The position numbers and the translations under genes were made by a program. Below, piece after piece: positions 1 through 53,715 of a DNA stretch of 64,000 nucleotides; positions within the stretch are counted from its first letter, which is position 1; each line of letters opens with the position of its first letter. Under the pieces are notes generated by a model, which ran no database searches, was not told the DNA's origin, and worked only from the letters and a program-made list of their open reading frames with translations. Origin of the DNA: an uncultured Granulosicoccaceae bacterium (GTDB lineage Bacteria; Pseudomonadota; Gammaproteobacteria; Granulosicoccales; Granulosicoccaceae); assembly GCA_937927895.1 (NCBI GenBank), contig CALGKA010000012.1, positions 1 to 64,000 of the forward strand, read 5' to 3'.

Positions 1-140
1 TAGCGAGGTTGTTCCAGGTGCGTGAGATTTTGCCTACTACATGTAGGCGTTTAGTCATTCTAAATAACGACATGTAGTCGGTAAAAGATTGCGTACCTGG
101 GGCGACCGCAGTAGCGTTCGTTTATGGATGGGCACTAGCT
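1..140. repeat. Palindromic MITE-like element, copy 1 (left end outside the window)
   Basis: This stretch closely matches 21130-21270. The right terminal inverted repeat lies at 120-140 (GTTTATGGATGGGCACTAGCT). The left terminus, about 25 bp, must lie before base 1. The two halves are imperfect reverse complements, so a transcript would fold into one long hairpin. There is no room for a transposase. A non-autonomous mobile element or a REP-like structural repeat are both possible. Confidence 0.8.
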
Positions 141-148
141 AGTGCCCA
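129..148. repeat. Perfect 20-bp palindrome at the element end
   Basis: TGGGCACTAGCTAGTGCCCA is its own reverse complement. It forms where the right end of the copy-1 element meets a further 12 bases that match an element left end (AGCTAGTGCCCA). This may be the scar of a second, mostly lost copy sharing the central AGCT. Confidence 0.8.
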
Positions 149-21084: not shown

Positions 21085-21104
21085 GCAACAAGCTAGATAT
21101 AATC

Positions 21105-21270
21105 AGCTAGTGCCCATCCATAAACAATGCGTAGCGAGGTTGTCTCAGGTGCGTGAGATTTCGGCTACCACATGTGGGCGTTTAGTTGTTCTAAATAACC
21201 ACATGGGGTAGTCGAAAGATTGCGTGCTTGAGGCGACCGCAGTAGCAGTCGTTTATGGATGGCACTAGCT
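21105..21270. repeat. Palindromic MITE-like element, complete copy
   Basis: About 166 bp with terminal inverted repeats AGCTAGTGCCCATCCATAAAC (21105-21125) and GTTTATGGATGGCACTAGCT (21251-21270), differing by one base. The inner halves are also imperfect reverse complements around a turn near 21185-21190, so the whole unit folds into one hairpin. It matches 1-140. No clear target duplication is visible; both ends carry CTAG. Confidence 0.88.
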
Positions 21271-21273
21271 AAC

Positions 21274-36738: not shown

Positions 36739-36815
36739 TGGCGGAGCGGACGGGACTCGAACCCGCGACCCCCGGCGTGACAGGCCGGTATTCTAACCAA
36801 CTGAACTACCGCTCC
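36739..36815 (-). tRNA. tRNA-Asp (GTC)
   Basis: A 77-nt cloverleaf on the minus strand. The acceptor stem GGAGCGG pairs with CCGCTCC, the D arm is TAGTTCAGTTGGTTAGAA, the anticodon stem is CGGCC/GCCGG-like with loop CTGTCAC (anticodon GTC), and the T arm contains GGTTCGAGTCC. The 3' CCA is encoded. A terminator follows directly at 36703-36735. Confidence 0.96.
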
Positions 36816-53694: not shown

Positions 53695-53715
53695 AGCTAG
53701 TGTCCATCCATAAAC
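53695..53715. repeat. Lone terminal inverted repeat of the palindromic element
   Basis: AGCTAGTGTCCATCCATAAAC differs by one base from the left end at 21105-21125. No internal element sequence and no right end follow. It starts 4 bp after the folE2 stop. Confidence 0.75.

Follow-up and report, generated by a model that had tools for sequence, protein, structure and literature searches.

A palindromic MITE of Granulosicoccaceae with a likely ISNCY-family mobiliser and a hairpin whose inherited changes suggest selection on one strand

The repeated palindrome at positions 21110-21265 of the window (the whole 64,000-nucleotide stretch analysed, which is the start of contig C12 of the source assembly, a 4.55 Mb draft in 168 contigs that is 92.6% complete) is best read as a MITE that is mobilised by an ISNCY-family transposase, targets TARYTA sites and owes part of its success to an RNA hairpin of one strand; we place the probability of this joint reading at about 0.85. 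In the mechanism that we propose, the 16-bp inverted ends of the MITE would be recognised by an ISNCY-family DDE transposase whose gene lies elsewhere, in a full-length insertion sequence (IS) with the same ends (GTGCCCATCCA[TG]AAA...). Insertion, as recorded in the sequences themselves, takes place in TARYTA sites with duplication of 6 bp, and repeated insertion in a TARYTA beside an earlier copy would give rise to tandem copies with 6-bp spacers. The interior, a long quasi-palindrome, is maintained through compensatory changes, with those changes that are inherited suiting a folded RNA of one strand. The hairpin of this one-strand transcript probably makes the element more successful: it may render insertions harmless, by capping or processing transcripts close to gene ends, or it may help the element to propagate. 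Transposition itself does not strictly require it, since forms of 62-69 bp that lack the core have also moved.

The copies in the window and their parts are delimited as follows:

21104-21109, plus strand: left target-site duplication CAGCTA (sequence read directly; the length of 6 bp is taken from the flank survey described below).
21110-21265, plus strand: full MITE copy, 156 bp; the plus strand is the one with the best RNA fold.
21110-21125, plus strand: left terminal inverted repeat GTGCCCATCCATAAAC, 16 bp (sequence read directly).
21251-21265, minus strand: right terminal inverted repeat, GTTTATGGATGGCAC on the plus strand, with one G lost (sequence read directly).
21266-21271, plus strand: right target-site duplication TAGCTA (sequence read directly).
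1-135, plus strand: second MITE copy, missing its left end where the contig starts; identity to 21110-21265, 85%.
136-141, plus strand: target-site sequence TAGCTA after the second copy (sequence read directly).
53700-53715, plus strand: solo end GTGTCCATCCATAAAC, with TAGCTA before it and no element body after it (sequence read directly).

The right end of the full copy is the complement of GTGCCCATCCATAAAC minus one G (GTTTATGGATGG-CAC), and the CAGCTA and TAGCTA around it constitute a 6-bp target duplication with one mismatch. The terminal inverted repeats of 20-21 bp given in the preliminary description of this DNA reduce to 16 bp, the remainder being the palindromic target duplication TAGCTA. 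Both of the copies recorded there are real, but 'near-identical' is too strong a term for them, as 1-135 matches 21110-21265 at 117 of 138 positions; the lone end, formerly placed at 53695-53715, holds up as a solo end in which ~18 bases match before unrelated sequence begins. The TAGCTA at 136-141 is followed directly by GTGCCCA, perhaps the remnant of a tandem neighbour. When folded as DNA, a single strand of 21110-21265 forms one end-to-end hairpin of -50.8 kcal/mol, against a mean of -22.2 (sd 3.2) for its dinucleotide shuffles (z -9.1; 0 of 200 as good), which bears out the single long hairpin that had been proposed. No ORF of at least 100 aa among those listed overlaps the copy, in agreement with the earlier view that it contains none.

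Within the source genome, the 16-bp end pattern with up to 2 mismatches finds 190 matches (~95 elements or ends), whereas the reversed-pattern control finds 4, and more than 40 near-full or full copies match well, most copies being 156-160 bp long. These counts are far above chance and render a single segmental duplication without other copies, the circumstance under which the preliminary description would have failed, impossible. Many contigs of this assembly start or stop within ~150 bp of a MITE end, and the window, with contig C12, starts inside a MITE copy. The repeats probably limit the assembly, and because contigs start and stop inside copies the true copy number is probably higher than the counted one.

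The spread of the ends was surveyed by the same pattern in 40 genomes, namely the source genome and 39 others (13 of the same genus and 26 from outside it). Matches were present in 11-12 of the 13 same-genus relatives, two of them with a single weak match, and in 0 of the 26 genomes outside the genus. A scan with TAGTGYCCATCCATAAAC of contigs from one genome per species recovered at least 100 stretches, about two-thirds of which have a second inverted end at 50-235 bp; the carriers among the matches listed are Desulfobacterales, several Gammaproteobacteria, Bacteroidetes, Altarchaeum and Sinorhizobium. The interiors of the listed stretches comprise a large Granulosicoccaceae/AB1 family, a large Desulfobacterales family (140-174 bp) and many singletons, and in Desulfobacterales, Bacteroidetes and Altarchaeum the ends enclose MITEs of unrelated interior. 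The occurrence of these ends in both Altarchaeum and Bacteroidetes suggests a wide transfer of the ISNCY system. No plasmid relatives were found. The copies with unrelated interiors in Candidatus Altarchaeum are L085, L108 and L163, and those in Bacteroidetes/Bacteroidales are L089, L142 and L159; TAATTA duplications accompany L108, L163, L089, L142 and L159.

The interior of the hairpin shows strong compensatory change. Among 69 aligned copies, compensated double changes occur at 18 of 47 pairs, and the compensatory cells number 201 against 55.5 +/- 14.6 in shuffles, above all 500 of the latter; when the pairing partners are slid, they drop to 2-30. The consensus pairs 48-110 and 49-109 form a tandem G-A/A-G that is non-Watson-Crick and nearly invariant. 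A paired motif AGAUUUU/GAAAGAU with this tandem G-A/A-G internal loop is common to the two main families (A1 consensus pairs 47-111 to 53-105; AGATTT at 20 and AAAGAT at 118 in the Desulfobacterales 142-bp family), reflecting either common descent or a functional motif; AGATTTT/GAAAGAT as a pair is absent from most other families.

Substitution patterns were then used to ask whether the target is DNA or RNA. We used a strand-symmetric pairing, in which mismatches are scored alike, together with a tree and parsimony, and compared changes found in several copies with private ones. In the main family, internal branches carry 46 changes from Watson-Crick to GU and 16 to AC, and terminal branches 86 and 92 (Fisher p 0.0006; p 0.003 when signs are flipped by pair). 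An independent analysis of the Desulfobacterales family gave 15:4 and 69:52, respectively, for which the Fisher test alone is not significant (p 0.08) and the sign-flip test yields p 0.012. The two families combined have a CMH p of 8e-5, on counts that derive from parsimony on short sequences, and pairing slides of +/-2 columns also leave a mild internal GU excess (p ~0.03-0.05). The preponderance of GU over AC among inherited changes suggests selection on a one-stranded, RNA-like fold. As RNA, one of the two strands has the better fold in every copy (121 of 121 in the main family and 102 of 102 in the Desulfobacterales family); the consensus folds stand at -93.5 vs -62.3 and -75.2 vs -53.1 kcal/mol, respectively. 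That the GU excess stems from strand-biased mutation in a master copy was considered and finds no support: in paired columns on internal branches, C>T plus A>G changes balance G>A plus T>C changes (65:64), which argues against it.

A single DNA strand folding as a hairpin would produce an identical GU/AC mark. The alternative that survives best is that the hairpin is maintained at the level of DNA rather than RNA, be it as a cruciform or single-strand hairpin in transposition or replication, or by template-switching correction. The element is near-palindromic along its entire length, template switching gives paired changes, and most of the other MITE families with the same ends and different interiors fold as long hairpins too, all of which this alternative accommodates. 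A strand-symmetric process, however, predicts equal numbers of GU and AC, at odds with the inherited ratios when these are set against the private ones, and it sits poorly with two non-Watson-Crick pairs that hardly vary; the data would still agree with a hairpin in which one particular DNA strand folds. We regard DNA-level maintenance as unlikely, though worth keeping in view.

Returning to selection on RNA, we would tentatively go a step further, to a proposal that we ourselves hold at rather less than even odds: the spread of the MITE may be favoured by its one-strand RNA, such that source copies, and not dead-end ones, are selected for an RNA hairpin with a conserved tandem G-A loop, which would have arisen or been kept in both Granulosicoccaceae and Desulfobacterales with the same ISNCY ends. 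If true, a transposon-encoded RNA structure would be a fitness trait of a DDE-type MITE. The strand test (G-U vs A-C on internal vs terminal branches) could be carried over to ERIC, bcr1, NEMIS and others, to see if selection acts on palindromic MITEs as RNA or as DNA only.

The conserved fold, along with the setting of the copies, 20 of the 47 intergenic ones being placed between convergent genes at a median distance of ~20 bp from the ORFs on either side, might also be expected of a structured RNA or terminator module that benefits the host and is copied around, with transposition incidental. This appears improbable, in that sense and antisense copies number 22 and 21 with no preference relative to the neighbouring genes, private mutations freely strike the stem on terminal branches, and an intrinsic-terminator scan of the window copy came up empty. 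The same lack of orientation bias speaks against a UTR function in cis, which was rejected. The window copy yielded no sigma-70-like promoter, and the element has no Rfam match above the gathering score, its only match (E = 0.14) being to a microRNA family. The sole Rfam match of the window is a tRNA gene at 36742-36815 on the minus strand.

The movement of the MITE as DNA is recorded in its flanks. Both flanks were surveyed for 241 elements; the duplication is perfect over 6 bp in 98 of these and over 7 bp in 1, the consensus being TARYTA, which supplies the target duplication that alignment of the flanks had been expected to define. As 40 of these 98 are not self-complementary (TAGTTA, TAACTA, TAACTC, TAGATC, CAATCA and others), what is seen is direct duplication rather than a palindrome that extends further; an extended inverted repeat, or an IS630-like TA duplication at CTAG, is ruled out on the same grounds. 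The convergent gene pair around 21110-21265 is syntenic and without the element in two relatives, where the gap between the matched stretches is 89 bp (G003) and 59 bp (G006). The 6-bp duplications and these two syntenic sites without the element mark it as a transposed MITE and not as a REP or a segmental duplication. It is less than 300 bp long, has no coding capacity, and combines 16-bp terminal inverted repeats, a 6-bp target-site duplication and high copy number with element-free sites, as MITEs do. Tandem copies have one 6-bp spacer in common, as expected if the target duplicated by one element then received another.

Short forms of 62-69 bp, from which the core hairpin is deleted at one common junction region, were read at five loci:

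L064, 1101-1169: short form.
L063, 3135-3198: short form.
L078, 1111-1172: short form.
L039, 1501-1569: short form.
L057, 1453-1516: short form.

Four of these lie between perfect 6-bp duplications, each at a site of its own; thus, the ends and a short subterminal sequence suffice to transpose, and the fold is not strictly needed for it. The RNA, if real, would act on tolerance or success and not on chemistry.

An ISNCY-family DDE transposase (NF033593, cut-off 325 bits) is the likely mobiliser, as judged from the elements that combine ends matching the MITE with such an enzyme (L094, L148, L177, L214 and L215). L094, found by the end pattern alone, is a 1669-bp element in which these ends surround a 457-aa transposase scoring 418 bits against NF033593 and also matching Pfam DDE_Tnp_1. 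The genus itself has full-length ISNCY copies, both above the NF033593 cut-off, in G012 (L214 148-1825) and G010 (L215 1284-2947); the intact IS of the former has TAGTTA on both sides, whereas the flanks of the latter differ, with TAATTA on one side and TAGTTA on the other. At L214, a MITE (1-148) directly abuts the intact ISNCY IS through one common TAGTTA. Distant gammaproteobacterial ISNCY elements have related GTGCC... ends (GTGCCTGCACGA, GTGCCCGTCCG) and target-site duplications TAATTA and GAAGTA. An ISNCY transposase occurs in 3 of the 100 end-pattern stretches listed (L094, L148, L177), in each case starting ~90-110 bp inside an end, although the family is rare in the class, where no more than 2 of the 274 genomes gave a strong NF033593 match. 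We take the ISNCY elements discussed here to belong probably to the ISDol1 subgroup. Like the MITE, the ISNCY IS have ends of the form GTGCCCATCCA[TG]AAA or close variants and a 6-bp target duplication; unlike it, they encode a transposase of ~450-480 aa that starts ~90-110 bp inside one end. The MITE encodes nothing, its perfect end is longer (16 bp vs ~11-16) and its interior is unrelated. Because this interior has no visible likeness beyond the ends to the IS copies read, the MITE is not a simple internal deletion of those IS. Taken with the inverted ends, the duplications, the copy number and the element-free relatives, these IS with matching ends uphold the initial idea of a non-autonomous element mobilised in trans; its mover, then called an unknown transposase, can now be given a probable name, ISNCY (NF033593), from IS of the same genus and others. 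An autonomous element suspected at C20:16503-18651 was rejected, as its two ends come from different elements, the right one being a 69-bp short form; the ORFs inside it are not transposase-like by eye.

The source genome, a 92.6% complete draft whose contigs are broken at repeats, yielded no intact ISNCY transposase, the best matches being 34.5 and 28.1 bits against the cut-off of 325; the source of the transposase is therefore either lost, unassembled or acting from elsewhere. This negative, from a search limited to the ISNCY family, leaves some room for a different transposase that shares ends and target site with ISNCY, a prospect we consider remote given that the same ends with a 6-bp TARYTA-like duplication occur on same-genus ISNCY elements, that related ends occur on ISNCY of distant gammaproteobacteria, and that all three IS-like transposases seen beside exact ends, which were found by pattern alone, are ISNCY (the transposase query was itself ISNCY).

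The REP-type structure offered in the preliminary description finds no support and is very improbable: REP/REPIN-type repeats spread by a RAYT (Y1 HUH) transposase are likewise palindromic, multicopy, mostly intergenic and non-autonomous, but they are much shorter, GTAG-tagged and tied to a Y1 transposase (PMC3733652, PMC3116915). REPs are described as 20-40 bp long, ending in GTAG and associated with a RAYT (PMC3733652), and the type makes no target-site duplication, whereas the unit here measures 157 bp, has inverted ends of 16 bp and makes direct target duplications of 6 bp, and full-length elements with its ends encode an ISNCY DDE transposase and not a RAYT.

MITEs with transcribed hairpins are already known as a kind (PMC2229807, PMC3733652, PMC3446304). 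ERIC, NEMIS/Correia, YPAL and RUP are MITEs of ~100-200 bp, mostly with terminal inverted repeats and target-site duplications; when transcribed they fold into long hairpins and can influence mRNA, and an IS630-type transposase has been proposed as the mover of RUP (PMC2229807); they differ from the present MITE in ends, target-site duplications and transposases, and none is linked to ISNCY in that account. The bcr1 and other repeats of the Bacillus cereus group are MITE-like and partly transcribed (PMC3446304), and like the present element they are multicopy and intergenic, some with a conserved RNA fold; they have another sequence and another host, whereas our MITE has ends tied to a named IS family and a strand signal from substitution patterns. 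The present work adds the link to ISNCY, the TARYTA rule and the strand test. In a literature search that covered few subscription journals, no paper on ISNCY-linked MITEs or these ends was found, and the end sequence itself surfaced in only one unrelated paper. Within that literature the MITE group is previously unreported, and it gains a likely mobiliser, ends and a target rule, by which it can be annotated across Gammaproteobacteria, Desulfobacterales, Bacteroidetes and one archaeal lineage.

Two loci depart from the usual organisation. At L067 2573-2906 (contig C92 of the source assembly), a tandem array of the MITE has an identical 10-bp spacer, TAGCTTGCTA, instead of the usual 6 bp, and looks like a duplication of the unit rather than independent insertions. 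At L006 1300-1496, a copy of 197 bp contains an internal direct duplication of ~40 bp and still has TAATTA on both sides.
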